Below, piece by piece: positions 4,248 to 38,179 of a DNA stretch of 42,538 nucleotides. The position numbers and the translations under genes are program-made. Origin of the DNA: a virus; IMG/VR virus record IMGVR_UViG_3300005526_000005, positions 1 to 42,538 of that record; one strand, 5' to 3'. The notes under the pieces were generated by a model, which saw nothing but the letters and a program-made list of their open reading frames with translations, was not told the origin of the DNA and searched no databases. How positions within the stretch are numbered: position 1 is the stretch's first letter; every line of letters starts with the position of its first letter.

Positions 4248-4265
4248 AATCGTTTCCTCCTTTGG

Positions 4266-4597: not shown

Positions 4598-4762
4598 TCA
4601 GCCTCCTCGCAGACCGGGTGCGAACAGAAACAGTGTGATAAGCAGCACGCAGATAAAGGCCAGCCAGTTGCTGGCCCAGACATACGGCGTGATCTGCGGC
4701 ACCGGCAGGATTGAGAGAAACCAAAGGAAGAGGGTCATTATCAGCAAGATTTGGATGATCAT
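4598..4762 (-). CDS. Small two-helix membrane protein (holin candidate)
   Basis: This 54-aa protein starts at ATG 4762 and overlaps the stop of the S74 fibre gene as ATGA, so the two are probably translated together. It has two hydrophobic segments, about residues 2-19 and 29-48, a short polar turn, and a charged LRRG tail. Size and topology fit a class II holin or pinholin, but small membrane proteins of other roles look alike. The endolysin candidate is far away, at 19243-19872, so there is no classical lysis cassette to support the call. Confidence 0.6.
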   Translation of the reverse strand: MIIQILLIMTLFLWFLSILPVPQITPYVWASNWLAFICVLLITLFLFAPGLRGG

Positions 4763-5301
4763 CGCCGCCCCTCCAGAGCCTCAACGCGAGCCGCCAATTC
4801 CTTGCAGGCATTGATCAGCAGATAGTTTGTGTGTGTCGGCGAGAGCGTCATGAAACCATCGACCTCGCCCACCATCTCCGGCACCACCGGCGCTACGTCC
4901 TGCGCCATCAGGCCGAAGCGCGGGTCGGCGCTGCCACGGTACTTGAAACGCACCGGCTTCAGCGCCAGCACGGCCTGCAATCCTTTATCGTACCGCTGCA
5001 CCGAATGCTTCAGCCGCGCATCGCTCATGACAATCCACGAGCCGGACTGGTTGTAGGTGCCTGTGGTATCGAATTTCGCAATATCGAAACCGTCGCGGAT
5101 GGTGCCGCCGGTCAGCTTCAGATAGGTGAAGGGCAACTGAGCCATCGCCGCGGTGATAGTGTCATACCAGCGGCGGATCGCGCCCATCATCGCGCGGGCG
5201 CAGTTATTGACGCTCGCCGGGCTCTGACCCTCCGGCCACCCCGCTGGTGGTGCGGCGGTGTTGTTGTCGTCGACCGGGTCCCAGGTAGAAACTTCAGACA
5301 T
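4759..5301 (-). CDS. Tail fibre protein with C-terminal S74 intramolecular chaperone domain
   Basis: This protein has 180 aa. The N-terminal part (WDPVDDNNTAAPPAGWPEG and following) resembles the virion-attachment region of short fibres. From residue 92 it matches the peptidase S74 self-cleaving chaperone: SDARLK (S93, K98, the Ser-Lys dyad), then FKYRG, FGLMAQDV and a C-terminal helix with ELAARVEALE. Such domains help trimerise a beta-helical fibre and then cut themselves off. The body here is very short, so this may be a small fibre, or a chaperone that folds partner proteins. The 3' end overlaps the small membrane-protein gene by 4 nt. Confidence 0.82.
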   Translation of the reverse strand: MSEVSTWDPVDDNNTAAPPAGWPEGQSPASVNNCARAMMGAIRRWYDTITAAMAQLPFTYLKLTGGTIRDGFDIAKFDTTGTYNQSGSWIVMSDARLKHSVQRYDKGLQAVLALKPVRFKYRGSADPRFGLMAQDVAPVVPEMVGEVDGFMTLSPTHTNYLLINACKELAARVEALEGRR

Positions 5302-23822: not shown

Positions 23823-24286
23823 GCGGCGGTGTTTCGGGCTATGGCTTCGGCGGCGAGGCGGGCTTCGGTTTCGGCTTTTTTGCGCTGCGCCTCGGCGATG
23901 GCGGTCATGCGCTCGGCATTGCTGCGCCATCCGAGGCTGCGGGCGTAGGCGTCGAGGTTGGTGGGAGGCGGCATGGGCTGTTGGGCTTCGCGGCAGAGGT
24001 TGCGGATTTCGGCGATCGAGGGTCGTTTGGCATGGGCTCGGCGCCATTCCCGGCAGGCGGCGGCGACGTCGTGGTATGGGAATTCGTGGAGGTCTTCGAT
24101 CCAGTCTGCGATTTGGGCTTGGCGAGTTGCGGGGGGGTCAGCCGCGGTCCAGAAGTGGCTCAGCAGGTTTGCAATCAGCGCAGCGAGCGGTCTCGCGCTG
24201 GCGGCGGTCGAAGGCGTCTGCGGCTCTCGCAGCGCCGAGATAGAGGCTTTCGACGGGGGAAAGTCGTTGATTTCTGCCACTTCCAT
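23819..24286 (-). CDS. Hypothetical protein downstream of the replication initiator
   Basis: This 155-aa protein starts at ATG 24286, inside the end of the DUF1376 gene (149-nt overlap in another frame). Residues 30-105 look like a small helical domain (LAALIANLLSHFW, ADWIEDLHEFPYHDVAAACREW, KRPSIAEIRNLCRE). The rest is a charged helix. Position after the DUF1376 protein suggests a helicase-loader or replication partner, which is inference. The long overlap means the true start may be further in, at a non-ATG codon. Confidence 0.6.
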   Translation of the reverse strand: MEVAEINDFPPSKASISALREPQTPSTAASARPLAALIANLLSHFWTAADPPATRQAQIADWIEDLHEFPYHDVAAACREWRRAHAKRPSIAEIRNLCREAQQPMPPPTNLDAYARSLGWRSNAERMTAIAEAQRKKAETEARLAAEAIARNTAA

Positions 24287-25025
24287 TGCTCCGCGGGGTT
24301 TCGTCCGGTTGATCGAGCCAGCGGTCCTGGCTGAGCCAGGTAGCGGGGTTGCACCAGGGTCGGTCCGGGGGTTTGTCTCGGATGTAGTTTTCGAGGCCGG
24401 CGCTGATCTTTTCGGGCGGAGCGCGGGCTACGGCTCTGCGGTATTGGGCCTCCGCGGCGCGCTTTGCCACTTTATGGGGATATAAATCCCAGAAGTTCGC
24501 CCAACCAACGAGGCCCCCCTCCAAGGGGGGCTTATGGGGGGTTACTCTTTCTTTCTTATCTTTCTTACTTTGTGAAGGTGAAGGTAAGACGCGCGCGCGC
24601 GAAGCTACGCTTGAGCTATGGGGGGAGCTATGGGTTGAGCTACCAGCAGTGCTACTAGCTGAGCTACTAGCTGAGCTACCGTTAGCCCAGCGTTTGGCGG
24701 CGGTCATATTTCCGCCGGAGCGGCGCGCGTTTGCTAGGGTTTCGGCCTTTTCAAGTTCGGCGTCGATGCGTTTGTGGCGCCATTCCTGGCCGTCAGAAAT
24801 TTCAAAGAAATGTTCCATGGTTGGGCGCATTTTTTTCCACTCAGAACGAGACATTTTTGTGATCATTCTGAGTGAATTATTTTCATCGGGCAGGGGGCCG
24901 CCGTTGCGCCAGTAGGCCATGATCAACAGAAAATAGACGCCGTGCTGAAGCGGGGTCAGATGCTGGGTATCGGCGAGGTAGTCGCCGATATAGAGGGGCA
25001 TCCAAGTATCGCTTGGCTTGGGCAT
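24138..25025 (-). CDS. DUF1376 replication initiation protein
   Basis: This 295-aa protein starts at ATG 25025 (MPKPSDTWMPLYIGDYLADT); the 76-residue upstream extension is antisense-like. Residues 5-95 are the DUF1376/YdaU winged-helix domain (LTPLQHGVYFLLIMAYW, LRMITKMSRSEWKKM). Residues 110-165 are a Ser-rich linker encoded by tandem repeats. Residues 180-245 resemble the DnaT/DnaD-type C-terminal domain (FWDLYPHKVAKRAAEAQYRRA, PWCNPATWLSQDRWLD) that contacts ssDNA and the helicase. The layout parallels lambda O: an origin-binding N-domain, a linker whose DNA is the origin, and a helicase-contact C-domain. Confidence 0.82.
   Translation of the reverse strand: MPKPSDTWMPLYIGDYLADTQHLTPLQHGVYFLLIMAYWRNGGPLPDENNSLRMITKMSRSEWKKMRPTMEHFFEISDGQEWRHKRIDAELEKAETLANARRSGGNMTAAKRWANGSSASSSASSTAGSSTHSSPHSSSVASRARVLPSPSQSKKDKKERVTPHKPPLEGGLVGWANFWDLYPHKVAKRAAEAQYRRAVARAPPEKISAGLENYIRDKPPDRPWCNPATWLSQDRWLDQPDETPRSNGSGRNQRLSPVESLYLGAARAADAFDRRQRETARCADCKPAEPLLDRG
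24510..24681. other. Candidate replication origin inside the DUF1376 gene
   Basis: On the plus strand about seven 12-bp units carrying GAGCTA/GTGCTA lie at 24600-24681 (cores at 24603, 24614, 24626, 24638, 24651, 24662 and 24674). Next come a (CG)5 run at about 24590-24599 and an AT-rich one-strand purine tract at 24541-24578. A perfect hairpin GCCCCCC-TCCAA-GGGGGGC ends the series near 24512. Iterons followed by a purine tract within the initiator gene is the lambda ori plan. No experiment or homology backs this. Confidence 0.5.
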
Positions 25026-25030
25026 CGCAC

Positions 25031-25231
25031 CTATCCGGCACGTTGGAGGGAGCTCTGCTCGCGAGCGGCGAGCCATTCGAGCATGAAGGTGCGGACCTGG
25101 CCCCAGGTCGCGGAGCCGCGATACTTTCCGGTGAGGGCTTCCCAAGCCGCCCAAGGCCGCACCCGATCGTCGGCGGCGCGCCAGTAGCGGATGGTGGCGT
25201 CGACGTCGGCGCGCAACGCAGCGGTGGTCAT
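25031..25231 (-). CDS. Small hypothetical protein
   Basis: This 66-aa protein starts at ATG 25231, overlapping the previous stop as ATGA, and ends 5 nt before the DUF1376 start. It begins MTTAALRADVDATIRYW and is helical and charged, with three Trp. The overlap chain from the HNH gene supports it as real. No family is recognised. Confidence 0.65.
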   Translation of the reverse strand: MTTAALRADVDATIRYWRAADDRVRPWAAWEALTGKYRGSATWGQVRTFMLEWLAAREQSSLQRAG

Positions 25232-25356
25232 GGCTCGCACCATTCGATGGCAAACACTCGCCCTTGCTTGTCGAGCAGCAGCCAGCACCACATCCATTCC
25301 TGGTATGTTGTGATCGGCGACGGGCGCTGTCGCCAGATGGGGCCGATCCTGCTCAT
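25228..25356 (-). CDS. Small Trp-rich 42-aa protein
   Basis: The gene starts at ATG 25356 (ATGA overlap with the HNH gene) and ends in TGA overlapping the next ATG. It contains TTYQEWMWCWLLLDKQGRVF and looks like one short beta hairpin. The two 4-nt overlaps are the main support for its being a gene. Confidence 0.6.
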   Translation of the reverse strand: MSRIGPIWRQRPSPITTYQEWMWCWLLLDKQGRVFAIEWCEP

Positions 25357-25835
25357 GGCCGGCACTCCATCACCGCTGCGACGAACTCGGCGGCGGCTTG
25401 CGGCGTGATGGCGCGAAGATAGTTAGCGGCCGCCTCTAATCGAGCGGCGCTATCTCCGGCGTGGCCGACCATTCGGTTGCAGTTAGTGCAAAGAAGACCG
25501 CGGACACGACTAGTGCTGTGGTCGTGATCAACATCAAAGGCTCGCTCTTGCGTCTTTTGGCATATGGCGCATCGGCCATTTTGGCGTACAAACAACGCAT
25601 CGTACCCGGCCTGATCAATGCCGTATTTTCGTATTAAATGCCGCTCGCGCTCTCGTTCAGGATTAGCCCAGTAGCGGCGTTTGTCTCCATCTGTCCTGCG
25701 CATGTATTCGCGAGTCGCGGCCATCTTGCAGACTTTGCAACGCGCCTGTAGGCCATGTTTCTTGCGGCGATCCGCGAAGAAATCCGTCCTTGGCTTTGTT
25801 TGCCCACATGCGGTGCAGGTTCTCACGGAGCGCAC
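25353..25835 (-). CDS. Endonuclease VII-like HNH nuclease
   Basis: This protein has 160 aa. Residues 7-40 hold two CxxC pairs (CTACGQTKPRTDFFADRRKK, then CKVC), a zinc-binding treble clef common in this family. Residues 65-125 carry the recombination endonuclease VII core: YDALFVRQNGRCAICQ, then FDVDHDHSTSRVRGLLCTNC. The DHDH and the two CxxC pairs supply metal binding and catalysis. Family members resolve branched DNA or act as free-standing homing nucleases. It overlaps the C5 methyltransferase gene by 13 nt. Confidence 0.85.
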   Translation of the reverse strand: MRSVRTCTACGQTKPRTDFFADRRKKHGLQARCKVCKMAATREYMRRTDGDKRRYWANPERERERHLIRKYGIDQAGYDALFVRQNGRCAICQKTQERAFDVDHDHSTSRVRGLLCTNCNRMVGHAGDSAARLEAAANYLRAITPQAAAEFVAAVMECRP

Positions 25836-26509
25836 TCCATGAAAGCCTTTATGAACTCGGTAGCGAGCGGGGCGACAATCGCATTGCCGTAGGCGCGCAG
25901 TCGTCCCACTCGGGCGGAAACCCCATGCGCTGGCGCCATGTTTCCGGCGTCACTTCGATGCCGGCGCAACCCGGCCATTTTGCCATCGATGGGCACGATT
26001 GGTTGGCTGTTGCCGTTGGTGTTGCCGACAAAGTAAATCCGAGGGCGCGCATGGTCTTTGCCGACAGCGACAGCCGGAAGAACTGCCGCCCCGATTTCGT
26101 AACCCAGAACTTCCAAATCATCGCAGACGCGATCGAGCCAGCTTCCCTTCTGGGGAATCTGTTCACCAAAGAGCGTTCGAGGGCGAGTTGCAGCGATGAG
26201 ACGGCACCATTGCGGCCAGAGGTCTTGTGCAATGGTCCGACCTCGCGCCGCTCCTGAGAGCGGCTGACAGGGGCACGAACCTGTCCAAACAGGTCGAGCG
26301 TCATCCCATCCGGCCAGTCTGAGGGCGACTGACCAGCCTGCGATTCCGGCGAAGAAGTGGCACTGGCTGTAGCCGCGAAGATCGTCGGCTCGAACATCGA
26401 CAATTGAGCGTTCGTCGACATCGCCGCCCGCGATATGGCCTTCAGCGACGAGGTTTCGGAGCCACTGTGCGGCATAGGGATCGACCTCGTTGTAGTAGGC
26501 GGTGCTCAT
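25823..26509 (-). CDS. C5-cytosine DNA methyltransferase
   Basis: This protein has 228 aa, shorter than typical Dcm enzymes. Motif I is FFAGIAGWSVAL (residues about 52-63), motif IV GSCPCQPLSGA with the catalytic Cys in PCQ, and motif VI FGEQ in place of ENV. A motif VIII-like stretch is KDHARPRIYFVG, and motif X is RLRAYGNAIVAPLATEFI. The target-recognition region is very small. It probably protects phage DNA from host restriction, and it is one of three methyltransferases in this operon. Confidence 0.88.
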   Translation of the reverse strand: MSTAYYNEVDPYAAQWLRNLVAEGHIAGGDVDERSIVDVRADDLRGYSQCHFFAGIAGWSVALRLAGWDDARPVWTGSCPCQPLSGAARGRTIAQDLWPQWCRLIAATRPRTLFGEQIPQKGSWLDRVCDDLEVLGYEIGAAVLPAVAVGKDHARPRIYFVGNTNGNSQPIVPIDGKMAGLRRHRSDAGNMAPAHGVSARVGRLRAYGNAIVAPLATEFIKAFMECAP

Positions 26510-26970
26510 GCGGCGGCCTCCAGGGGGAGTTCACCAGCGCGCGGCAATGGTGCCACTGTCACCACCAGTTTTGGCTGCAGGCCGTAACGCTTGGTCATGT
26601 GCACGTCGACAACGAGCGCGTCGTTGGTGACAACGATACCATTTAGCATGGCATCGGCGGCCAATTTATAGACATTGTCGATGTCGGGTCGGGTGCCGGG
26701 CCTTATAATGCCTAAGATTGCGAGATTGCGGCGTTTTTTACTCCAACTGGCAGGAATTGGCAGTTCTGCCAGAAGGGTGACCGACACCGGCTCGTCGAGG
26801 ACTGCCGCACCCATTTCGCGCATGGTGTTGGCGGCTTCGATGCGGAGCGCGGCCATGGCGTTACGCTGCGGCGCCGGGACAAAGTGGGCCCCGGTGCGGG
26901 CAGCGATGCGCATGCGGGCGAAGGGGGTGGGCTCGCCCAACAACACCACTGTCACCGGCTGCGCGGTCAT
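26506..26970 (-). CDS. rusA: RusA-family Holliday junction resolvase
   Basis: This 154-aa protein starts at ATG 26970 and overlaps the previous stop as ATGA. The signature RPDIDNVYKLAADAMLNGIVVTNDALVVDV at residues about 92-121 has the Asp residues (DxDN, then ND) that bind metal in RusA. The N-terminal strand TVVLLGEPTPFARMR is also typical. It cuts four-way junctions before packaging. Confidence 0.88.
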   Translation of the reverse strand: MTAQPVTVVLLGEPTPFARMRIAARTGAHFVPAPQRNAMAALRIEAANTMREMGAAVLDEPVSVTLLAELPIPASWSKKRRNLAILGIIRPGTRPDIDNVYKLAADAMLNGIVVTNDALVVDVHMTKRYGLQPKLVVTVAPLPRAGELPLEAAA

Positions 26971-27614
26971 GTCTTTTTCACCGCGTCAAACAGTGACAAC
27001 TGCCCTGGCAGATCTTTGGGCCGGCGCATTTTGGGCGGCTTATCCCAAGGGTAGATTTTGACTTTCGCCGCAGCGGCGGCATTAAGAATGTGGTCCGGCA
27101 CCTTGATCCAGCCGAGGAATTGGAAGGGGCCGTTGCCATCGGTGACATCCCAGACGACGCCGCCGCTGGGGAAGCGCCAACTCGGGGGAATCTCCATCGG
27201 GACAGGGAGCGCGCTGATCGGCGCCCACAGCAGATGCGGCTTAAAGTCCACGTCTTCCTTACGCGGCTTTAAGTGGATGAAAGCCAAGTCGACCGGGACG
27301 CCGCCCGCATTGATTTTCTTGTAGGCTAACCACTTGTGGCGGTCGGTGCCGGTGCACCAGATGCCGAGCTTCTGGAATTTGTAGGCGCCGTTTGGTTTGG
27401 CTTTGACCTCCACCAGGCGTGAGTGGCGGATGCCGGCAAGGTCGAACAGTTGCAGGTCGGGCATGATGACTTTGCCGGCTCGGCCTTCGGCCATCGAGGC
27501 GCCGCGGCCGAGGTCGGCGACGTGCAGGACGTGCCAGCCATTATCGATAGCCCACCGGGCGGCTTGGCCTTCCGACCATTCGGTTAACTGTCTGAGCCAA
27601 TCGTTGGTCAGCAT
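26967..27614 (-). CDS. PD-(D/E)XK nuclease-like protein
   Basis: This protein has 215 aa. Residues about 48-75 show MPDLQLFDLAG followed by LVEVKAK, the PD...ExK arrangement of restriction-like nucleases. A helix with GQAARWAIDNGWHV precedes it, as the fold requires. The C-terminal half has Trp-rich strands and ends LPGQLSLFDAV, which resembles a sliding-clamp-binding motif (QLSLF). It sits between the Dam-type methyltransferase and RusA. The nuclease call rests on motif spacing only. Confidence 0.7.
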   Translation of the reverse strand: MLTNDWLRQLTEWSEGQAARWAIDNGWHVLHVADLGRGASMAEGRAGKVIMPDLQLFDLAGIRHSRLVEVKAKPNGAYKFQKLGIWCTGTDRHKWLAYKKINAGGVPVDLAFIHLKPRKEDVDFKPHLLWAPISALPVPMEIPPSWRFPSGGVVWDVTDGNGPFQFLGWIKVPDHILNAAAAAKVKIYPWDKPPKMRRPKDLPGQLSLFDAVKKT

Positions 27615-28645
27615 AGGGGTGCGCCCAGGTAAATTGGCTCGACGCAGAAGCCGATTTCGCTAAACACCTTGACGAATTGATTGAGGTTGCGGCCGTAATA
27701 GAAGAAGGCCTGTCCTTGGGTCGGCAGCACGGGTTGCGCATTGGGCACGGTGAAGTGAATGCGGCCGGTGGTGAAGCAGATGCCGTAGCAGGCGGCGGCG
27801 GCTCTAAAAAACCACTGCGTGTCGGTGGAATTGTTGGTGAGGACGATCGCCTGGTGGGTGCGCCCGGCGGCGATTTCATCGATCAGCTTATCGATAAACA
27901 GCGGCGCCAGCTCGCGGTGATAGGGCGGGTTGAGCCACACGTTGCCGTCCCAGGGTTGTTCCAGGCCGTTATCGGTTTCGGTGAAGAAGCGGGTGGCGCG
28001 GACGGTTTGCTGGGCAATTGGCGAGGAGGCCGGGTCGAGGTCGATGGTGCCGAGGACACGGCGGGCGCGCTCGATGTATTCGGCGGGCGTGTACCGCTCG
28101 AACTCGCCGGTGCCTTCAGTGCCGCGGATGGTGTTGGCGTTTTCCTGCTCGCAGATGCGGACGCTACGCCGACCGGCCTCTTCGAGAGCGGCACCTAGCT
28201 TGTCATCCGATACCACCCACCGCTTGCCTTCTTTCTCGCAGAGGCGCTGGCGCCAGCGGTGGACGATACGCTTGCCCGGGTCGGCGTCTGGCAAAACGGG
28301 TCTTGGAACTGCGACCCGTTTTCCTCGGCCGGGAGCACCGATCGCTTGCGACGGCACGGCAACATCCTGGCGGTAAACCACATAGCCCGCCTGCTTCGTC
28401 AGCTTCAGCTTGACTGCCTCGAATAGCTTCTCAGGGTCCTTGGCGGCCTTCCAGTGCTTCTCGGCGGCTTCCGCGACGACGATCTGTTTGAGCGAGGTTT
28501 CGGCGTCGGCGAGGGTCGCGGGAACATGGACGACCGGCAGCACCGCCGGCACTTTGGCGGCTTCACGCTGCTGCCGCAGCTCGGCGACGGCGGCGTAGTA
28601 CGAGTCGTGGAGGTCGACGCTGGCGTTGTATTCGCGCTCGGTCAC
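27608..28645 (-). CDS. Phage N6-adenine methyltransferase (Dam-type)
   Basis: This 345-aa protein starts at GTG 28645, overlapping the upstream stop as GTGA. Residues 1-165 are a charged helical region of unknown role. The methyltransferase domain starts at about 185 with GEFERYTPAEYIERAR, then IDLDPASSPIAQ, then VWLNPPYHRELAPLF with the catalytic NPPY. The last part is IVLTNNSTDTQWFF, then FTVPNAQPVLPTQGQAFFYYG. This matches the phage DNA N-6-adenine methyltransferase family. It probably guards against restriction or times replication and packaging. Confidence 0.86.
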   Translation of the reverse strand: MTEREYNASVDLHDSYYAAVAELRQQREAAKVPAVLPVVHVPATLADAETSLKQIVVAEAAEKHWKAAKDPEKLFEAVKLKLTKQAGYVVYRQDVAVPSQAIGAPGRGKRVAVPRPVLPDADPGKRIVHRWRQRLCEKEGKRWVVSDDKLGAALEEAGRRSVRICEQENANTIRGTEGTGEFERYTPAEYIERARRVLGTIDLDPASSPIAQQTVRATRFFTETDNGLEQPWDGNVWLNPPYHRELAPLFIDKLIDEIAAGRTHQAIVLTNNSTDTQWFFRAAAACYGICFTTGRIHFTVPNAQPVLPTQGQAFFYYGRNLNQFVKVFSEIGFCVEPIYLGAPLC

Positions 28646-28794
28646 GGCAGCGCCTCCGGCGATAAGTGCCGGCAGCCGCCGCTAGGGGGTAGCGCCGCGC
28701 GGAGGTTGTGCGCGGTGAGCGGCTGCCGGCAGCCGGCGTGCGGGCTGTCCCGAAGCGCCCGCGGGCCGGGTGGGGATGGGGTTGCGGCGCTCAT
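28642..28794 (-). CDS. Small 50-aa hypothetical protein
   Basis: The gene starts at ATG 28794 (ATGA overlap with the zinc-ribbon gene) and ends in TGA overlapping the GTG of the methyltransferase. It is rich in Pro, Ala and Arg with three Cys. Its support is the exact 4-nt overlap on both sides. The composition is weak evidence for a folded protein. Confidence 0.45.
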   Translation of the reverse strand: MSAATPSPPGPRALRDSPHAGCRQPLTAHNLRAALPPSGGCRHLSPEALP

Positions 28795-29045
28795 GCGGCG
28801 GCCTCGGTCGGCGGCACCAGGCGGGGCACCGGCGCCCGCACCGTCTGCGGCTGCTCCATCTCGTCGGCAACAGCGCGCAATCTGGCGGCGGCGGCGGCGA
28901 TGGCGTCGGGGTGCAGGGTGCTTTCCCAGGTGACCATGCGGTGGCCGCAGCGGCGGCAGCGGCGGATGCGGCGGACATAGCCGGACTGCGGCTGCAGCCG
29001 GCTATCGGTGACGCGGGTGGCGGCCTGGCAGTGCGGGCAGGGCAT
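28791..29045 (-). CDS. Zinc-ribbon protein (NrdR/Ogr-like)
   Basis: This 84-aa protein starts at ATG 29045, sharing a base with the upstream stop (TGATG). MPCPHC, then a DSR and Arg-rich hairpin, then CRRCGHRMVTWE form a zinc ribbon nearly identical in plan to the N-terminal domain of NrdR and similar to Ogr/Delta activators. A helical tail follows instead of the NrdR ATP-cone. It is probably a small DNA-binding regulator. Confidence 0.75.
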   Translation of the reverse strand: MPCPHCQAATRVTDSRLQPQSGYVRRIRRCRRCGHRMVTWESTLHPDAIAAAAARLRAVADEMEQPQTVRAPVPRLVPPTEAAA

Positions 29046-29206
29046 CAGCGGCTCCGCCCGGTCGCTGGAGGCGCTGCGCGGCGGGTGTCGGGGCGCCATT
29101 CCGGGGGGATATATTCACCCGCGAGCCAGCGGCGGCGCAGCTCGGCGATCACCGCCATATAGCTTTCGTAGAAGTCGCGCTCGGGATCGAAGATGCGATT
29201 AGTCAC
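29045..29206 (-). CDS. Small 53-aa protein, GTG start
   Basis: The gene starts at GTG 29206, overlapping the beta-class methyltransferase stop as GTGA, and ends sharing a base with the next ATG. It begins with TNRIFDPERDFYESYM and is a charged amphipathic helix followed by a Pro/Arg tail. The N-terminal part resembles that of the Dam-type protein further on (EYNASVDLHDSYYAAVAELR), so the two may share a small helical module. Confidence 0.6.
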   Translation of the reverse strand: MTNRIFDPERDFYESYMAVIAELRRRWLAGEYIPPEWRPDTRRAAPPATGRSR

Positions 29207-30042
29207 AGCGTCGCCTCAATTTGGCATGCCGTGGCGTGTGGCCGCCGGTAATCGCGGAACAGATCAAGTTGGCGGTAGGCGGCCTTTACGCGCTTACAGG
29301 CAAGGGCAAACCATTTCGGGTCGCTTTCGCAGCCGAGAAAGCGGCGGCCGAGTTGCGCGGCGGCGACGGCGGTGCTGCCGGCCCCCATAAAGGGGTCGAG
29401 GACCAGGTGGCTGGGCTCGGTGTGCAGACGGATAAACAACCCGGCCAGTGCTTCGGGTTTAGCCGTGGGGTGGTCACCAGCGCCGGGGATTATTTTCTTG
29501 ATCCCGTGCGCGCCAGGCCGGAGCACGTTTTCGATGGCATTTGTTGTGTCGTACCAACGGCAGGGGCCGCCGCGTTTTTGCCCAACGAGGACTGTTTCGT
29601 AAGAGCGGCGATAGTGCCAGCCCATGCCCATCGGGCCTTTGTCGAACACCACCATTTGCTTAAAGCCGAGGGCCTCGTCGAGCCAGAGCGACCAGCGGGC
29701 GAATTGGGGATCGGGGCCGCCGCCGCCACAGCAGCAGCAGCAGCAGCAGCAGCCGCCGGCGGCTAGGAGCCGGTTAGCTTCGGCAAACAGCCACCGCGCA
29801 ATTTCGTTTGCTTCCGGGCCATCGTTGTCGATGGGGCGTGGCGTAGCCGCCTCTATTTCATTAGCTGGTCGGCCTAAGGCTTTCTCCCACCGCTCGATAA
29901 GGTCGCCGTTGTTGTTGTTGTGGCCATAGGGCGGGTCGGTGAATATGAAGTCGATGCTGGCGCTTGCCAGTGTCGGCAATATCTCGCGGCAGTCGCCGAG
30001 ATAGAGTGTGGCGGCCCCGATATGTTCAACGCGCGTGGCCAT
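29203..30042 (-). CDS. Beta-class DNA methyltransferase (N4/N6) with an eight-cysteine run
   Basis: This protein has 279 aa. Motif IV is DFIFTDPPYG (DPPY at residues 36-39). Motif I, LVLDPFMGAGSTAVAA, comes near the C-terminus, which gives the beta-class order. Between them, after RLLAAGG, lies a run of eight Cys (98-105) then four Gly, encoded by a TGC repeat, where other enzymes have a hydrophobic strand. TAKPEALAGLFI is the usual lead-in to motif I. It methylates phage DNA; the target base and site cannot be read from sequence. It starts at ATG 30042, overlapping the upstream stop as TGATG. Confidence 0.87.
   Translation of the reverse strand: MATRVEHIGAATLYLGDCREILPTLASASIDFIFTDPPYGHNNNNGDLIERWEKALGRPANEIEAATPRPIDNDGPEANEIARWLFAEANRLLAAGGCCCCCCCCGGGGPDPQFARWSLWLDEALGFKQMVVFDKGPMGMGWHYRRSYETVLVGQKRGGPCRWYDTTNAIENVLRPGAHGIKKIIPGAGDHPTAKPEALAGLFIRLHTEPSHLVLDPFMGAGSTAVAAAQLGRRFLGCESDPKWFALACKRVKAAYRQLDLFRDYRRPHATACQIEATL
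29728..29751 (-). repeat. TGC trinucleotide repeat encoding polycysteine
   Basis: Seven TGC codons plus one TGT lie in a row on the minus strand, inside the beta-class methyltransferase gene. They are flanked by GGC repeats on both sides. Changes in unit number would keep the frame. Confidence 0.9.
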
Positions 30043-30305: not shown

Positions 30306-30400
30306 CACCGCGCCCAGCGTTTTAGGGCGAGGCAGAGCAGCACGGCCGCGGGCATGGTGATGACGAGGTAGAAGGCGACGATGAGGGCGAAGGTGGTCAT
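30305..30400 (-). CDS. 31-aa single-span membrane protein
   Basis: The gene starts at ATG 30400 (ATGA overlap with the HTH gene). It begins MTTFALIVAFYLVITMP and is hydrophobic through residue 26, then ends KRWAR, so it would insert with its C-terminus inside. It is too short for most gene finders, but both ends overlap neighbours exactly. Confidence 0.6.
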   Translation of the reverse strand: MTTFALIVAFYLVITMPAAVLLCLALKRWAR

Positions 30401-30657
30401 TCGGCGGCGCAATCGGCGCGCTTTGCCGCCTTGGGACGCGCGATACCGCGAGGCCAAGGCACTCCTGATGGCCAATTTTCGTAAAAGAATGCCTCTATCG
30501 TGGCGAGCGTGTAGCTGTTGGCACCCCGCCCTTCAATTAGGCGATTGAAGATTTTGTGATTTCCGGGACAAGCTCGCAAAGCGACCGTACTGAGCGCGAC
30601 ATCCTCTGCGGCTGCATAGCGGCGGGCCAGATGCAGGATCTCGTTTGGACTCAGCAT
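30397..30657 (-). CDS. Small HTH regulator, first gene of the leftward operon
   Basis: This protein has 86 aa. The N-terminal 60 residues look like an HTH domain (EILHLARRYAAAEDVALS, then GNHKIFNRLIEGRG). It shares the IEGR turn with the divergent repressor-like protein. The C-terminus is basic. Its position divergent to the repressor suggests a Cro-like role. There is no ribosome site. The -10 TATTCT ends 7 nt before the ATG, so transcription probably starts at the A of the start codon (leaderless). Confidence 0.7.
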   Translation of the reverse strand: MLSPNEILHLARRYAAAEDVALSTVALRACPGNHKIFNRLIEGRGANSYTLATIEAFFYENWPSGVPWPRGIARPKAAKRADCAAE

Positions 30658-30694
30658 AGGCGTCAGAATACGCGGAATTTATTCCGTCAGACAA
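30657..30694 (-). promoter_or_regulatory. Leftward early promoter PL with operator
   Basis: On the minus strand -35 TTGTCT (30694-30689), an 18-nt spacer and -10 TATTCT (30670-30665) are visible. The spacer contains the perfect palindrome CGGAAT-AA-ATTCCG (30686-30673). The start point falls at about 30657, the first base of the gene. The same 14-mer sits in the same place in the rightward promoter at 31581. Confidence 0.82.
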
Positions 30695-30772
30695 GGCCAA
30701 AACCCATCTTGCTCGACAGGAGCGGCCTGATAGCGGGAATGATTTGGGTGGAATATTAGAATATTTTCCAAT

Positions 30773-31297
30773 ATGAGTAGCGTGATTGGAATCGTGCAAT
30801 TGCCCCTTTTGGAAGATTTAGACCGTGCCCTCTGGGCCGATCAGAGGATGTGGGGAGACGTGGAAGACCAGTTGTGGGATGACCCCGCGTTTAAGGCGCG
30901 TCTTCGCATCGCGGCGAAACGCAAGGGGACGAGTGTTGCCAAGGCTCTGCTCGCGGTTGGCGCGTCTCGCAATTATCTGGACAAACCGATCGAAGGACGA
31001 TCGACGAACACGATCCTAAAGCTTGCGCGGCATCTCGAAATCTCGCCCGCGCTCTTAATGGGGATTGCACCTTTTGACCTCGGTATGGAGGTCCCCAAGG
31101 TCAGCAAAATGACAGAGAGTGAACGATTGCAGCAGCTTAAGATTGTAGCAAAGACGATCGCGCTCCAGCTCGCTGCGTTAGTCTATTGCACGAGCGATAG
31201 ATCGGATGCCGACCCCGCAGTGCTGATGAAATTTGTGCTGCAGGAGATCAATGGCAATCACTCGGTGAGTGAGGATATCGGCGGCAAGGGGATGTAA
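30773..31297 (+). CDS. Repressor-like HTH (XRE-type) protein
   Basis: This protein has 174 aa from ATG 30773. Another ATG at 30848 with an AGAGG site is possible. Residues about 40-100 form the DNA-binding domain (ARLRIAAKRKGTSVAKALLAVG, YLDKPIEGRSTNTILKLARHLE). The C-terminal 70 residues are helical and probably dimerise; there is no Ser/Lys autoprotease site, so it would not be a LexA-type SOS-cleaved repressor. It lies between the two outward promoters that share an operator, the place of a lambda CI. The ATG at 30773 lacks a ribosome site. Confidence 0.78.
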   Translation: MSSVIGIVQLPLLEDLDRALWADQRMWGDVEDQLWDDPAFKARLRIAAKRKGTSVAKALLAVGASRNYLDKPIEGRSTNTILKLARHLEISPALLMGIAPFDLGMEVPKVSKMTESERLQQLKIVAKTIALQLAALVYCTSDRSDADPAVLMKFVLQEINGNHSVSEDIGGKGM

Positions 31298-31476
31298 AAG
31301 CAAGGCTTTAGGCGGCACTCGCCATCAAGGGTAAACCAGTCGCTACCATCCCATTCGCTGAGCGCCCAGTCACTGCCATTGACGCCTGGGGAGACCAAGC
31401 ACGGGCCATAAATTTCGTTTGGTTTGGTGGGAGCCTTAGCAATCGGTAGCAGAGGCCCCAAAGACGGTTTTGCCAT
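31258..31476 (-). CDS. Small protein convergent with the repressor gene
   Basis: This 72-aa protein starts at ATG 31476. The pattern YGPCLVSPGVNGSDWALSEW, then GSDWFTLDGE, then CFYIPLPP resembles small phage proteins with a final W/Y-x-PLP motif (DUF551-like). The last 40 nt overlap the end of the repressor gene on the opposite strand. A separate promoter lies upstream (31513-31542), so it may be expressed in the lysogen. Confidence 0.62.
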   Translation of the reverse strand: MAKPSLGPLLPIAKAPTKPNEIYGPCLVSPGVNGSDWALSEWDGSDWFTLDGECRLKPCFYIPLPPISSLTE

Positions 31477-31512
31477 TGTGCCTGCTCAGCAGTGTTTATT
31501 GCCCTTTCCGGT

Positions 31513-31542
31513 AGCATACGTACCCCGTACTGGACAACGCAA
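31513..31542 (-). promoter_or_regulatory. Possible promoter for the 72-aa gene
   Basis: On the minus strand -35 TTGCGT (31542-31537), an 18-nt spacer and -10 TATGCT (31518-31513) precede the 72-aa gene. A variant operator lies just upstream, at 31550-31564. Confidence 0.45.
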
Positions 31543-31549
31543 CTGCCTG

Positions 31550-31564
31550 CCGGAATAAATCCGG
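31550..31564. promoter_or_regulatory. Variant operator
   Basis: CCGGAATAAATCCGG is a 15-bp palindrome with 5-bp arms. It resembles the two perfect 14-bp operators, differing in the right arm. It lies between the leftward promoter of the 72-aa gene and the rightward PR, so a weaker third repressor site is likely. Confidence 0.5.
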
Positions 31565-31580
31565 AAATTTTTCAAACTGG

Positions 31581-31610
31581 CTGGACGACGGAATTTATTC
31601 CGCTTAGGAT
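31581..31610 (+). promoter_or_regulatory. Rightward early promoter PR with operator
   Basis: -35 CTGGAC (31581-31586), an 18-nt spacer and -10 TAGGAT (31605-31610) are visible. The spacer holds CGGAAT-TT-ATTCCG at 31589-31602, placed two bases after the -35, exactly as in PL. It drives the rightward operon that begins at 31643. Confidence 0.78.
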
Positions 31611-31642
31611 AACGGAGGCTCACTGAAGAGGCCTTCGTCAAA

Positions 31643-31858
31643 ATGCACCCCCGCCCGCACCTCGACACCCTTCTCTGGCGCGTCTTTACCGAGGCGCAGA
31701 CCTTGCTGCGCGAGGCGGAGCGGGTCGAGATCGGGCAATACCAGCACCTGGCGGCGCACCTGCTGCCGCTGAGCCGGGCGGTGGAGGCGGTGGAGGATCA
31801 CGAGCAGCGCGCGGCCGAGGCCGAGGACCGGGCGGCACAGCGGATGGGCTGGCTTTGA
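31643..31858 (+). CDS. Small helical protein, first gene of the rightward operon
   Basis: This 71-aa protein starts at ATG 31643, about 25 nt after the expected start of the PR transcript. It is strongly helical with Glu/Arg/Ala heptads (LLREAERVEIGQYQ, then AVEAVEDHEQRAAEAEDRAA). The stop shares a base with the next ATG (TGATG). No family is recognised. Confidence 0.65.
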   Translation: MHPRPHLDTLLWRVFTEAQTLLREAERVEIGQYQHLAAHLLPLSRAVEAVEDHEQRAAEAEDRAAQRMGWL

Positions 31859-32719: not shown

Positions 32720-32860
32720 ATGGGCGCCATCTCGTTCTCGAATGTCGTGTTTGAGCAGCCGATCCGCCGCCGCCGCATGCTGGCGCGCCTCGCCATCCCG
32801 ACCGGCGTCGCGCTGTGGGCGGCGGCGATCGTCTGGCTGCTGGTGCGGGTGGCGTCGTGA
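32720..32860 (+). CDS. Small single-span membrane protein
   Basis: This 46-aa protein starts at ATG 32720 after GAGGAG. It has a basic cluster ([10 protein letters not shown]) before one hydrophobic helix of about 20 residues, so the N-terminus stays inside. Its TGA overlaps the GTG of the next gene. Confidence 0.62.
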
Positions 32861-33357
32861 CCGGGCCGGTGCGCGAAGCCCACGAGAAGGTCTGCCTCTC
32901 ATGCGGGCGGGTGTTCTACAAAAAGCCAGGAAACAAATGGGGCAGACAAACAACATGTTCTAAATCATGCGCAACACGCCTGCGCCATTCCAATGGCGAA
33001 CGGCTTGGCACAAAGCCAAAACCGATTAGCGTTAGGTTTTGGGAGAAGGTTAAAAAGACTGAGAATTGCTGGTTATGGACGGCATCATTAGATGCCGCCG
33101 GATACGGTCAATTATCAGCCCGTCGCAGCCAAGGGCGGCCGATGCGAGCATCTCGCGTCTCGTGGGAGTTGCACTTCGGGGAAATCCCGAGCGGGATAGA
33201 GGTTTGTCACGAATGCGATAACCCTCGCTGCGTGAACCCGTCCCACCTGTTCCTTGGAACACATGCGGTTAACATGCGAGACGCCTTCCATAAGGGGCGA
33301 ATAACGAGGAATGAAATATCTGGCCGGTTCATGAGCGGGGGTCGCAATGAACCGTGA
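32857..33357 (+). CDS. HNH endonuclease, free-standing homing type
   Basis: This 166-aa protein starts at GTG 32857 (GTGA overlap). An N-terminal zinc finger ([23 protein letters not shown]) is followed by [17 protein letters not shown] and [20 protein letters not shown], then [21 protein letters not shown], the HNH_3 core with the catalytic His/Asn. Base composition is lower in GC than its neighbours, which suits a recent mobile arrival. It could assist spread of the capsid intron, but nothing shows that directly. Confidence 0.85.
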
Positions 33358-34264
33358 AGTGCGCGAAATTACGTCTACTGGGGATTGGCTCGACTGGCGG
33401 CGTGCCGACATAACAGCGAGCCGGCTACCGGCATTGTTCGGATTGCATCCATATTTGTCACTTGAGCAACTCGCCGAAATCATGCGCGGCGCGGTATCGA
33501 GCGGCGCCGGGGCGATCCCTGCCGATAGTCCCGCAATGCGGGCTGGCCGTATTCTAGAGCCTGCCGTTGCCGCTGCTATCCGCGAAGAAAAACCCGAATG
33601 GACGCTGCGGAAGGCATCGACATATCACCGGCTGCCGGAACACCGGCTTGGATGCACGCCTGACTATTGGTGTGCAGCAGAAGAGGATGACGGGCTCATT
33701 CAGATTAAGACTGTCGGACCGCATCAGTTTGAGAAGTGGCACGGCCGTCCGCCGACCGGGTACTTGATCCAGACGCTTGCAGAATTGATTGTCACCGGGC
33801 GCACGTGGGGTTGTTTGGCGGTAATGGTGCGCTCGCCTAGCTATCCGGTCTTTTATTATTCAGTCCCGCGTCACGAAGCGGCTGAGGCCAAGATCCTCGA
33901 TGCTGTCGCAGCGTGGTGGCGCGACTTCGATGCCGGCCTGCTTCCTGGCGCTGCACCAAGCGAGGCGCTAGCGGCCGACTTGGATGATGGTTCGTATCGA
34001 GACTTATCGAGCGACAATTTCCTCTGCGCCTCGCTGCCGGAGCGCGAGCAACTGAAATCCGAGATTTCGGCAGCCGAGAAGCGTGTCGCCGAGATTGACG
34101 CGGCGCTGAAGGCGGCGCTGGGGCCGGCGAGCAGCGGCTGGCTACCGGGCTACAACATCACCTGGCGCACCCAGCACCGACGCGAGACTGTCATCCCCGA
34201 GCGCGATATCCGCGTGCTGCGCGTGCGGGCCGCCGCCGAGGAGGAGGGAGCCGATGTCCAATGA
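33347..34264 (+). CDS. YqaJ-type viral exonuclease
   Basis: This protein has 305 aa. The N-terminal two thirds match the lambda-exonuclease-like YqaJ domain: [39 protein letters not shown], then [13 protein letters not shown], giving the E, D and ExK-like (QIK) metal site. The C-terminal part is a helical region. It is followed directly by the RecT-like gene (11-nt overlap). The pair forms a phage recombination system that chews ends and anneals strands. Confidence 0.88.
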
Positions 34265-35330
34265 GTTAGCGCCGCTGCCGTTTGAACAGATGCAGGCGTT
34301 GGCGCAGTCGATCGCGCGCAGCGGCATGTTCGGGATCAAGACACCGGATCAAGCGATGGTGTTGATGGCGATCGCCGCCGCTGAAGGGCGACCGGCGGTT
34401 CTGGCCGCACGCGATTATCATGTGATAAACGGCAGCCCGTCGAAGAAATCGGAAGCAATGCTGCGGGACTTCCTCGGGGCCGGTGGCCGGGTGCAGTGGC
34501 ACGAGCTGAGCGACCAGGCTGCCGAGGCGACGTTCTCGCACCCGCAGGGCGGCGAAGCGAAGATCCGCTGGGACGCGGCCCGCGTAGCGCAGGCGCAACT
34601 GTCGAACCCGATGCACCGCAAGTTTCCCAGGCAGATGCTGCGCTCGCGGGTGGTGTCGGAAGGTGTCCGCACGATCTGGCCGATGGCTACGGGGGGCCTT
34701 TACGCGCCCGAGGAGGCGGCCGAGATGCGGGCGGAGCCGATCGACGTGACGCCGCCGCCCGCGCCGGTCGACACGGCGGCCGATCTCGATGCCTTCGCCG
34801 GCATGACGGCGTCGATCGATGAAGTGGCGCTGCAAAACGAGGCCAACAGCGCAGCAATGCTGGGTGCCGAGGCGTTTCGCGCCTTCTGGGCGGCTTTAGA
34901 CCCTGCCATGCGCAATTCGCTGCGCCCCGCGCTTTCCGCCTATCAAGCTACCGCCGCAACTGCCGACGAGCGTGCGCGCGATGAAGACCCCTTCGGCCTG
35001 CCGCCGCTGCCCGAGGCGGCAAAGCCCCGCTTGAGGTACGCCGACGACGAGATGCCGGGGGAAGTAGTGATTGTCGAGGCGCCGGCGGTGCCGTTTGCGG
35101 CGGCGGTGCGGGCGCTGATGCCAGTTGCCAACGAGGGCGGCGAGCTGAACTGGCAGGCGTGGAGCGATGCGTTTGTCGAGCTGATCGCCAGCGCCAGCCC
35201 GGGGGATTGCGAGAAATTGCGGATATCGTCGCTGGCGCAGTTCGGCCGGTGCCGGACCCAGAACGGCGATGCGGCGCGCGCCATCCTTGATGCGCTGGCG
35301 GCAAGAACGAAGGAGGTGACAAATGGCTGA
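34254..35330 (+). CDS. RecT-like single-strand annealing protein
   Basis: This protein has 358 aa. Residues 10-160 fit the RecT core: MQALAQSIARSGMFGIKTPDQ, AAEGRPAVLAARDYHVINGSP, KKSEAMLRDFL, then PRQMLRSRVVSEGVRTIWP and GGLYAPEEAAEM. The rest is a Pro/Ala/Asp linker and a helical C-terminal domain probably contacting partners. It binds ssDNA made by the adjacent exonuclease. Confidence 0.85.
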   Translation: MSNELAPLPFEQMQALAQSIARSGMFGIKTPDQAMVLMAIAAAEGRPAVLAARDYHVINGSPSKKSEAMLRDFLGAGGRVQWHELSDQAAEATFSHPQGGEAKIRWDAARVAQAQLSNPMHRKFPRQMLRSRVVSEGVRTIWPMATGGLYAPEEAAEMRAEPIDVTPPPAPVDTAADLDAFAGMTASIDEVALQNEANSAAMLGAEAFRAFWAALDPAMRNSLRPALSAYQATAATADERARDEDPFGLPPLPEAAKPRLRYADDEMPGEVVIVEAPAVPFAAAVRALMPVANEGGELNWQAWSDAFVELIASASPGDCEKLRISSLAQFGRCRTQNGDAARAILDALAARTKEVTNG

Positions 35331-35913
35331 ATTTGTATTGCATATCGTGGGCTTATCGCCGCTGTTGACACACAACCCGGCATCGATGGCGATCCCTAAA
35401 GCGGTGGGCACGAGAGGCTCCAACATTCCGCTGCCGGAAGTCGAGGCCGAGGCTGCGGCTTATCGGTTGGCTGATGGGCAATGCGCGCTCCCGGCCATCG
35501 CACTGCGCTCGGCGATCATCGAGGCGGCGGGCGCCTGGAAGGCGGCGGGCCGGCGCAGTTCCATGAAATCCGTTCTAGCCCACATCGAGGTCCAAGACGA
35601 GCTGCTGCCGCTGTGGAACCCCGACGATGGCTCGCCGCTAACGTCATATGTCATCGACCGGCGCCGTGTCCGGGTGCAGCGTGCCGGCGTTATGCGGGCT
35701 CGACCGAGGTTCGAGCGATGGGGTACCAGCATAATCTTGGGGTTTGATGAGGTGCTGTTAACGCAACCGTCCATTATTAAGGAGATCGCCAACGACGCCG
35801 GCCGGCGGTTTGGTGTCGGTGACTATCGGCCGCAAACAAAGGGTTGGTTTGGAAAATTTGCTACCTCTGATCAAGCTGCCTGGACGGCGGCGCTGCCGCT
35901 CGCGGCGGAATGA
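35323..35913 (+). CDS. Recombination-operon protein, possible RAMP/Cas7-like fold
   Basis: This protein has 196 aa, with an 8-nt overlap with the RecT-like gene. It begins with a strand FVLHIVGLSPLLTHNP, then ALPAIALRSAIIEAAG, SYVIDRRRVRV, RPRFERWG, and a final glycine-rich loop RFGVGDYRPQTKGWFGKF. A repeated strand-helix plan with a G-x-G near the end is seen in RAMP-type RNA/ssDNA-binding proteins. Position beside exonuclease and annealase suggests ssDNA binding. The fold assignment is inference and needs a structural test. Confidence 0.55.
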   Translation: MAEFVLHIVGLSPLLTHNPASMAIPKAVGTRGSNIPLPEVEAEAAAYRLADGQCALPAIALRSAIIEAAGAWKAAGRRSSMKSVLAHIEVQDELLPLWNPDDGSPLTSYVIDRRRVRVQRAGVMRARPRFERWGTSIILGFDEVLLTQPSIIKEIANDAGRRFGVGDYRPQTKGWFGKFATSDQAAWTAALPLAAE

Positions 35914-35918
35914 AAGTG

Positions 35919-36251
35919 GCGGGGCAGGCCTGGCGCGGCGGGGCGTGGCTCGGCGGGGCGGGGCGAGGCGGGGTGAGGCAGGGCAGGGCAGGGATTTTGT
36001 TTGTTGGTTTTGTGGCGAGGCCAGGCTTGGCGTGGTCGGGCGAGGTCTGGATTGGCCCGGCGGGGCAAGGCATGGCAGGGATTTGTTTGCAGGATTTGCG
36101 GCACGGCAGGGTGTGGCTTGGTCCGGCCGGGTATGGCTTGGCAAGGCAGGGCGAGGCAGGGCATGGCAGGGATTTGTTGAGTGAGTTTCAGGCGCGGCTG
36201 GGCGGGGCACGGCTCGGTACGGCTGGGCTGGGCGAGGCATGGCGAGGATTT
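35919..36251 (+). repeat. GGCNN pentanucleotide array in four blocks
   Basis: Four blocks of consecutive GGYNN pentamers (mostly GGC; 14 in a row in block 3, 36100 to about 36169) are present. Each ends in GATTT: at 35993, 36080, 36171 and 36247, spaced 87, 91 and 76 nt. The first three GATTT tails continue GTTTG or GTTGA. The plus-strand transcript would be G-rich, the minus strand C-rich. No open frame here has protein-like composition, so I treat it as noncoding between the RAMP-like and ParB-like genes. Confidence 0.9.
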
Positions 36252-36257
36252 AGACCG

Positions 36258-36923
36258 ATGCAATTAGAGATCAGCAAAATCGTGCGGGACGAGACCATCT
36301 ACCCGCGCAACAACGCGAACGAGTTCACGATCGCGCGCATGCTGGCGAATTTTGATGCCGGCGCCAAGTTTCCGCCGGTGACGGTGACGGCGGAAACCTA
36401 TCGCCTGGTCGATGGCTGGCACCGGGTCGAGGTTTATCGGCGTCGTAGTGTCGACAAGGTGTCGGTGACGGTAAAGCAGTATGCGAGCGAAGCCGACATT
36501 TTCGCCGATGCGGTACGTCTCAACATCCAGCATGGCCAGCCGCTCAGCTCGTTCGATGTCCGCGCCTCCATCGCACGCCTGATGCAGCTCGGGTATCAAC
36601 GAGACGAGATTGCGGAGGTGGTTCGCATGCCCGCGGCGAATATCGAAGAAATTACCCGCGGCTTTGCCGTGGGACCGGCCGGCAATGCACCGGTCGCCCT
36701 AAAAGGCGGGCTGCAGCATCTGCGCGGGCAAAACCTTACAGAGCGCCAGCAAAAAGCGCAGCGACATTATGGCGGCGGCGCGGCGCTGTTTTATGTCCGA
36801 CAGATTGCCCTGCTGCTCAACAATGATTTGTGGCCGACGCGATCGAATCTGTTCGCCGAGGAGATGGACGCGTTGGCGGCAGCCTGGCTGGAACTACGCA
36901 AGCCGCATCAACGCGCAGGCTAA
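36258..36923 (+). CDS. ParB/sulfiredoxin-fold protein
   Basis: This protein has 221 aa from ATG 36258. The frame is open further back to 35910, but only through the GGCNN repeats. Residues 1-75 are a ParB-like N-domain (MQLEISKIVRDETIYPRNN, FPPVTVTAETYRLVDGWHRVE). HTH-like helices follow (FDVRASIARLMQLGYQRDEIAEVV). The last 60 residues are helical. Phage ParB-like proteins may be nucleases, partition or transcription factors. A role linked to the repeats just upstream is possible. Confidence 0.78.
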   Translation: MQLEISKIVRDETIYPRNNANEFTIARMLANFDAGAKFPPVTVTAETYRLVDGWHRVEVYRRRSVDKVSVTVKQYASEADIFADAVRLNIQHGQPLSSFDVRASIARLMQLGYQRDEIAEVVRMPAANIEEITRGFAVGPAGNAPVALKGGLQHLRGQNLTERQQKAQRHYGGGAALFYVRQIALLLNNDLWPTRSNLFAEEMDALAAAWLELRKPHQRAG

Positions 36924-36935
36924 AGGAGAGCGCCG

Positions 36936-37349
36936 ATGGCTGCCCCCACAGCCGCCCCCAACCGGCCGCAGGTTGAACCGCTGTATTACGAAGTCGAGGC
37001 TGCGAGAATACTGGGCGTGCCGCCGCGTGCGCTGCGCTCGGAGCGCACCGCCGGCCGGATCACCTATCGCAAAGTGGCCGGCCGGATCATGTACCGCGCC
37101 GACGATCTAACCGCCTGGCAGGAGAACATTGCATGCCCCGTCCTTCCACAGGACCGAAGCTTAGAGCGAATCCGAAACGCGACGGCATATACTACATCTA
37201 CTGGACCGATGAGCGAGGACGGGGCCGCGAGCGTTCGACGGGCACTAGAGACCACCGCAAGGCTGCGGCAATCTTTGCGGAGTGGCTCGACACAAGAGCC
37301 CGCCCCCTCGAATGGACCGGGCCAAATCGTGCCTCTGAGACAAGAATAG
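36936..37349 (+). CDS. Excisionase-like HTH protein
   Basis: This 137-aa protein starts at ATG 36936 after a strong AAAGGAGAG site. Residues 17-65 are a MerR-like winged HTH (LYYEVEAARILGVPPRALR, ITYRKVAGRIMYRADDLTAW), as in phage excisionases and helix-turn-helix 17 proteins. The remaining 70 residues run out of frame over the integrase start (217-nt overlap) and look less ordered. It probably directs excision with the integrase. Confidence 0.75.
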   Translation: MAAPTAAPNRPQVEPLYYEVEAARILGVPPRALRSERTAGRITYRKVAGRIMYRADDLTAWQENIACPVLPQDRSLERIRNATAYTTSTGPMSEDGAASVRRALETTARLRQSLRSGSTQEPAPSNGPGQIVPLRQE

Positions 37350-38179
37350 CCGACGTTCTCAAGGTCTATGCCGACCAGAATATCGACCGTGTCGCGGCAA
37401 AGGCGACGGTACTTTTCTCGATTGATGCGTTGCTTCGCTGGTGGGGCGACCGGACCTGTGACTTCATCAAGCGCGAGACATGCCGCGCCTATGTCCGCGA
37501 CCGGGTCGCAGAGGGGCGGCAGGAAAGCACCGCCGCTCGCGAGTTGACGGTGTTGCGCGCGGCGCTCGGGCATGCTCATGCCGATGGCAAATTGCTTGAG
37601 CGCCCGTTTGTGGAGGTGCCGGCACGCCCACCGGGGCGGGACCGCTGGCTAACGCGATCGGAAGTCGCTCGCTTGCTCTGGGAGAGCCGGCGCGACCCGC
37701 AGGCCCGCGGGCATCTCCCGCTGTTCATCCTGCTGGCGCTGGCAACCGGGGCGCGTTCCGGGGCGCTGTTCGATCTGCGCTGGCATCAGATCGACTTCGC
37801 CCGCAACCGCATCAACTTCAACCTACCGGGCCGGCAACAAACGGCAAAGCATCGCCCGATCATTGCATTGCCGCGCCGACTGCGCTGGTTTCTGCTGCAG
37901 GCGCAGGCGCGCGCCTCGTCGACGTATGTGCTGGCGTACAACGGGAAACAGATCAAAAGCGTGAAGAAGTCATTCCGCCGGGCACGAGAGCGTGCCGGGC
38001 TCGGGCCGGATGTTGTGCCGTATACGCTGAGGCACACCGCAGGTACCTGGCTAGCACAGGCAGGCGTCGATCTTTGGACGATCGCCGGTTGGCTTGGACA
38101 CAGCCAGCAGAAGACGACCGAATTGTATGCGCACCACAGCCCCGACTTCCTGCTGGCGGCGCGTAAGGTGATGGATTGA
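37133..38179 (+). CDS. int: Tyrosine integrase
   Basis: This protein has 348 aa. A SAM-like core-binding domain spans residues 70-155. The catalytic domain starts about 170 (DRWLTRSEVARLLW). The first Arg is in LATGARSGALFDLRW, the box II Arg in PYTLRHTAGTW, the His in WLGHSQQKTTELY and the nucleophile Tyr in TTELYAHHSP. The usual HxxR begins with Tyr here (YTLR). It integrates and excises the prophage. The attachment site is probably downstream, near the repeat region and tRNA. Confidence 0.92.
   Translation: MPRPSTGPKLRANPKRDGIYYIYWTDERGRGRERSTGTRDHRKAAAIFAEWLDTRARPLEWTGPNRASETRIADVLKVYADQNIDRVAAKATVLFSIDALLRWWGDRTCDFIKRETCRAYVRDRVAEGRQESTAARELTVLRAALGHAHADGKLLERPFVEVPARPPGRDRWLTRSEVARLLWESRRDPQARGHLPLFILLALATGARSGALFDLRWHQIDFARNRINFNLPGRQQTAKHRPIIALPRRLRWFLLQAQARASSTYVLAYNGKQIKSVKKSFRRARERAGLGPDVVPYTLRHTAGTWLAQAGVDLWTIAGWLGHSQQKTTELYAHHSPDFLLAARKVMD

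Follow-up and report, generated by a model that had tools for sequence, protein, structure and literature searches.

Paired candidate operators in the early promoter spacers of a probable lambda-style immunity region from an uncultured virus

Paired palindromes around a repressor-like gene

Does a 14 bp palindrome that is found twice around a repressor-like gene act as the operator of a lysis-lysogeny switch, and if so, which protein would bind it? The question is raised by a stretch of viral DNA of 42,538 nucleotides, IMG/VR record IMGVR_UViG_3300005526_000005 (here termed the window). The palindrome, CGGAATTTATTCCG, has a 6-2-6 structure with a TT centre. It is present as an exact 14-mer at positions 30673–30686 (operator 1) and 31589–31602 (operator 2), in both cases as read on the plus strand, although the sites themselves are annotated without a strand. 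The pair brackets a gene at 30773–31297, and each copy lies in the spacer of a predicted outward promoter. With a probability that can be put at roughly 0.85, this is the immunity region of a temperate tailed phage, in which the repressor would occlude both early promoters through operators in their spacers.

The initial annotation of this DNA had reported the shared palindrome at these two places and proposed a genome search for more copies. Both copies are exact, and there is no third in the 42,538 bases. One pair of identical 6-2-6 palindromes at most 1.5 kb apart is observed, compared with a mean of 0.0067 per window in 300 simulated windows of the same dinucleotide make-up; the pair is therefore unlikely to be a product of chance.

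Read along transcription, the left promoter carries CGGAATAAATTCCG and the right promoter CGGAATTTATTCCG, each between a −35-like and a −10-like box, so that the operators overlap the core promoters as first proposed. The leftward promoter (minus strand) consists of TTGTCT (30689–30694), ga, operator 1, cg and TATTCT (30665–30670), with a spacer of 18 bp; TATTCT matches the consensus in four of six positions, and at the −35-like box TTG-N5-CGG is kept in three related contigs, L052, L058 and L010. The rightward promoter (plus strand) was initially read as CTGGAC (31581–31586), ga, operator 2, ct and TAGGAT (31605–31610; TAGAAT in L052), also with an 18 bp spacer. By direct count, CTGGAC has two of six matches to TTGACA. 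A register with TGGACG (31582–31587) and a 17 bp spacer is better, with 4 + 4 of 12 consensus matches. Of the identical placement within 18 bp spacers that had been claimed, the −10 side thus stands, as does the length of the left spacer; the −35 side depends on the register, because the right promoter fits better as TGGACG-17.

The left and right box pairs both score 8/12. As 2.6% of random 42 bp windows reach this score, box likeness alone is weak evidence, and it is from conservation, not from box scores, that the promoter and operator assignments draw their support.

Conservation and co-variation in relatives

When viral contigs were scanned for the operator alone (GACGGAATWWATTCCG), with proteins left out of account, 52 stretches matched. 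Among these, two contigs, L052 and L010, encode beside the site relatives of both the repressor-position protein (P0001, the product of the bracketed gene) and the protein in the Cro position (P0002, encoded leftward of operator 1). Identities are 68 and 36% to P0001, and 69 and 38% to P0002, for L052 and L010, respectively. A third relative, L058, was found by protein search alone; its repressor is 42% identical and its layout is the same. Scans of genome contigs with P0001 and with alignment A1 gave no relatives, nor did phage and plasmid protein searches with P0001.

Several other matches were set aside. The match in L001 is a chance one, within an unrelated protein among structural genes. 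A second operator-pattern scan (CGGAATNNATTCCGCGTA) picked up L052 again, together with seven contigs that encode no relatives and are taken as chance. L047 carries seven copies of an 18 bp palindrome, GACGGAATWWATTCCGTC (at 791, 1696, 1857, 2095, 2528, 3468 and 9532), and encodes no repressor relative; these copies look like a dispersed repeat family.

In L052 both palindromes are 100% identical to those of the window and have the same spacing, while positions 30640–31660 as a whole are 68% identical. Identity is 47% in the bases downstream of operator 1, and 57% both in the remainder of the intergenic sequence and in the leader that follows operator 2. Operator 2 lies within a block of 40 bp (31568–31607, plus strand) that is identical in L052 and also contains the right core promoter.

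With up to two mismatches allowed, the operator is matched four times in L058, each time within the immunity region; 0.34 matches would be expected, and none of 200 shuffles reaches four. At the right promoter of L058 a palindrome fills the spacer, with TAGACA followed by GTGGATTTGAATCCGCG and TACCGT. When the window and the three relatives are taken together (four contigs, ∼127.5 kb), all 11 sites of the pattern GGAAN4TTCC are in immunity regions, compared with three matches per strand in total for the same pattern written backward.

In L010, which has the layout of the window, the sites at both early promoters are changed to GGAAA..TTTCC and are again within promoter spacers. The two promoters of one phage thus change operator together. 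The right promoter there reads TTGGCA-17-GATAGT; the boxes on the Cro side are poor (6/12). L010 keeps one CGGAATTTATTCCG (4752–4765), in the part of the intergenic region towards the repressor gene. Since both early promoters of a phage differ in concert from those of its relatives, immunity specificity should be predictable from the operators and could be tested in reporter strains.

The repressor-position and Cro-position proteins

The gene at 30773–31297 (plus strand) encodes P0001, of 174 amino acids. The initial annotation had placed a repressor-like helix-turn-helix (HTH) gene between the promoters, and this is borne out: approximately residues 39–96 form the HTH and align with CI repressors in a profile match (E = 8e-5, probability 61%). 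The gene holds the CI position. Members of the P0001 family match the CI-type phage families phrog_8 and phrog_2328 at 2.8e-6, and the family has the Cro/C1-type HTH that marks CI/Xre-type repressors. No Peptidase S24 domain was found by Pfam match in P0001 or in its relatives from L052, L058 and L010; as a positive control, four of five repressors beside P0002 relatives in other phages do match S24. No literature on the P0001 repressor family was found. In the L058 repressor, a long Arg-Glu repeat separates the HTH from the C-terminal part (∼4220–4300).

P0002, of 86 amino acids, is encoded at 30397–30657 (minus strand) by the first gene of the leftward early transcript. It is a clear member of phrog_7669 (E = 2.7e-14), a family annotated as of unknown function. 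Relatives of P0002 are directly divergent to an annotated CI or phage repressor in Rivra and RC1, and in most loci examined they diverge from CI-like genes, with S24-type repressors among their neighbours; P0002 is on these grounds assigned to the Cro position. The divergent arrangement with a CI-type repressor gene recurs in L061–L067, L069, L070, L002 and L003, as at 30397–30657 of the window. It is likely, from these gene neighbourhoods, that phrog_7669 is a Cro-position family. No HTH match to P0002 was found in Pfam, PDB sequences or the CI profile. The position is a pointer to function for a family that lacked one and is the most useful by-product of this analysis. In L010 (4846–5024), the Cro-position gene seems to be without residues 46–66 of P0002, perhaps through an internal deletion.

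The operator centre is close to the start codon of the Cro-position gene; measured to the A of the ATG, the distance is 22.5 nt in the window and in L052, 20.5 nt in L058, 23.5 nt in L010 and 20.5 nt in L065. Because the −10 box is two bases from the operator, almost no leader is left before the ATG, and the Cro-position gene is probably translated from a leaderless mRNA.

Proposed switch and alternative explanations

In the proposed switch, P0001 most likely binds both identical palindromes as a dimer. Since each palindrome fills the −35/−10 spacer of an early promoter, a bound dimer would exclude RNA polymerase from both promoters at once. When free, the leftward promoter would give a leaderless mRNA that encodes the Cro-position protein, with replication and late genes after it; the rightward promoter would express the operon for recombination, excision and integration. 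Cooperative binding and autoregulation are probably contributed by the weaker sites, which lie over the repressor start and ahead of the right promoter.

Several points weigh against this interpretation. Binding and promoter activity are deduced by sequence comparison, the promoter boxes are only 8/12 to consensus, and relatives found number three only. Conservation at the right site cannot separate operator from promoter, as the site is within the 40 bp identical block. The CGGAATTTATTCCG copy kept in L010 does not match the same promoter position. P0001 by itself gives weak family matches (phrog_2967, E = 0.003). Lastly, P0002 could be the binder, or P0001 and P0002 could share the sites as in lambda.

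This last point, developed into an alternative in which the palindromes are primarily P0002 sites, and in which the product of the 30773 gene either works at other places or uses them too with a different affinity, is unlikely. In distant phages with P0002-family proteins, the Cro-promoter spacer also holds a palindrome (AGTGGGATGCATCCCACT, Rivra-type), and in lambda the same operators serve both proteins (PMC4488713). CI-type repressors are present in those distant phages too, however, so that the link of the palindrome to P0002 is no closer than its link to the repressor; moreover, P0002 has no HTH match by profile, and the paired sites flank the repressor gene. For the record of an uncultured virus, binding by a regulator of the host, put to use by the phage, might be considered, but is very improbable: the half-site varies from one related phage to another (GGAAT has become GGAAA in L010), yet the two promoters of each phage match, as expected for a phage-encoded regulator. 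That the palindrome is a chance or unrelated repeat, as the multi-copy repeat with the same core and other centres in the unrelated contig L047 and the seven further contigs with the extended operator pattern and no encoded relatives might suggest, is effectively refuted by the comparative data, with position and sequence conserved in relatives and a simulated expectation of 0.0067.

Repression by P0001 at both spacers is thus preferred. A more elaborate version can be offered only tentatively: a minimal two-promoter switch in which a repressor that lacks an autocleavage domain and a phrog_7669 protein in the Cro position compete for one identical site per spacer. In such a scheme, phrog_7669 would be a Cro family that is widespread in phages of Alphaproteobacteria but has so far gone unrecognised, and RecA-driven cleavage would not be needed for induction.

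Weaker operator-like sites

A third, weaker palindrome, which the initial annotation placed at 31550, is real. It is CCGGAATAAATCCGG at 31550–31564 (no strand), with its centre ∼38 bp upstream of that of operator 2, and is 87% conserved in L052. By an operator matrix built from relatives only, it is the third-best site in the whole window, with a score of 14.9 compared with 23.8 for the two main sites. A doubtful but possible alternative for this site, compatible with the explanation given for the two main ones, is an intrinsic terminator that ends repressor-gene transcription before the right promoter. The palindrome has a stem of 5 and a T-rich tail, and it folds at −7.3 kcal/mol. The copy in L052, in contrast, folds at −3.2 kcal/mol only, yet keeps operator-like half-sites; in L010 and L058, operator-like palindromes rather than terminators are found 27–38 bp upstream of the main sites. 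The third palindrome is best regarded as a putative secondary operator that may, in this phage, double as a weak terminator.

A degenerate, AT-rich, operator-like repeat, TGGAATATTAGAATATTTTCCA (30749–30770, no strand), is just upstream of or over the repressor start. Its counterparts are clear palindromes near the corresponding place in L052 (TGGAAAGTTTTCCA) and L058 (CGGAAAATATTCCG), and the repeat is a possible autoregulatory site. No clear sigma70 promoter was detected for the repressor gene; the best candidates, at 30713 and 30727, score 8/12. The description of the region as having one operator per promoter, which omitted this repeat and the weaker sites at 31551 and about 31562, consequently covers the strong sites only.

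Genome organization

The rightward early operon (plus strand) begins with a gene of 71 amino acids at 31643–31858, and the first gene is homologous in L052 and L010. Genes at 32815–38179 encode an HNH endonuclease, a RecE-like exonuclease, RecT-like, ParB-like and excisionase-like proteins and a tyrosine integrase; the last two, excisionase and integrase, speak for a temperate phage. Leftward of the Cro-position gene (24138–30042, minus strand) are genes for DNA methyltransferases, a RusA-like resolvase and a primosomal/replication protein, and beyond these are packaging and structural genes, including terminase and portal. A tRNA-Val(cac) at 39344–39418, downstream of the integrase gene, is a possible attachment site; its 3′ end has no repeat elsewhere in the window.

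Comparison with known switches

The arrangement can be compared first with that of phage lambda. As in lambda, a repressor gene lies between two outward early promoters whose related operators overlap the core promoters; a divergent Cro-position gene is first on one arm, and recombination and integration genes are on the other. The lambda-like immunity region of the initial annotation is in this respect upheld. Left and right are swapped, however: the promoter it called PL serves the Cro side and corresponds in function to lambda PR, and the one it called PR, which serves recombination and integration, corresponds to lambda PL. Lambda CI carries an autocleavage domain, whereas no S24 domain was found in P0001. 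Lambda also has tripartite operators at each promoter (PMC4557955); here each promoter has a single strong site, and the remaining sites are weaker. A stoperator layout with many dispersed sites, as in mycobacteriophage L5, is not found in the four contigs, where GGAAN4TTCC is confined to the immunity region of each.

Mycobacteriophage BPs offers a close parallel in organization. Its small repressor, gp33, has an operator, OR, between the −10 and −35 boxes of an early promoter, and a second operator is beside the repressor gene (PMC4557955); all of these features have likenesses in the window. The BPs site differs in that a 12 bp palindrome is half of a larger site, and control of the BPs repressor is integration-dependent. 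No sign of sequence relatedness to BPs was seen in family libraries. The immB region of the telomere phages PY54/N15 likewise has divergent repressor and cro genes and few operators. Leaderless cI and cro mRNAs have been mapped in PY54 (PMC4488713); here a leaderless mRNA is predicted. Only one site, close to the repressor gene, is bound by Cro in PY54, whereas the window has a strong site in each early promoter.

Agrobacterium phage Rivra and relatives (L061–L067) share with the window a P0002-family gene divergent to an annotated CI, and a palindrome that fills the Cro-position promoter spacer. Their operator sequence differs, and their repressor has an S24 peptidase domain. The Rivra-type palindrome, near AGTGGGATGCATCCCACT, fills a 17 bp spacer (TTGCAA to TATAAG) in L061, L063, L064, L065, L067 and L002.

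As BPs (from published work) and the Rivra-type phages (from their sequences) display it, a switch with operators in promoter spacers is already known in kind. What the window adds is a model, drawn from sequence, of the immunity region in a group of uncultured temperate phages, and it represents a well-supported further example of the familiar lambda-style switch rather than a new kind.
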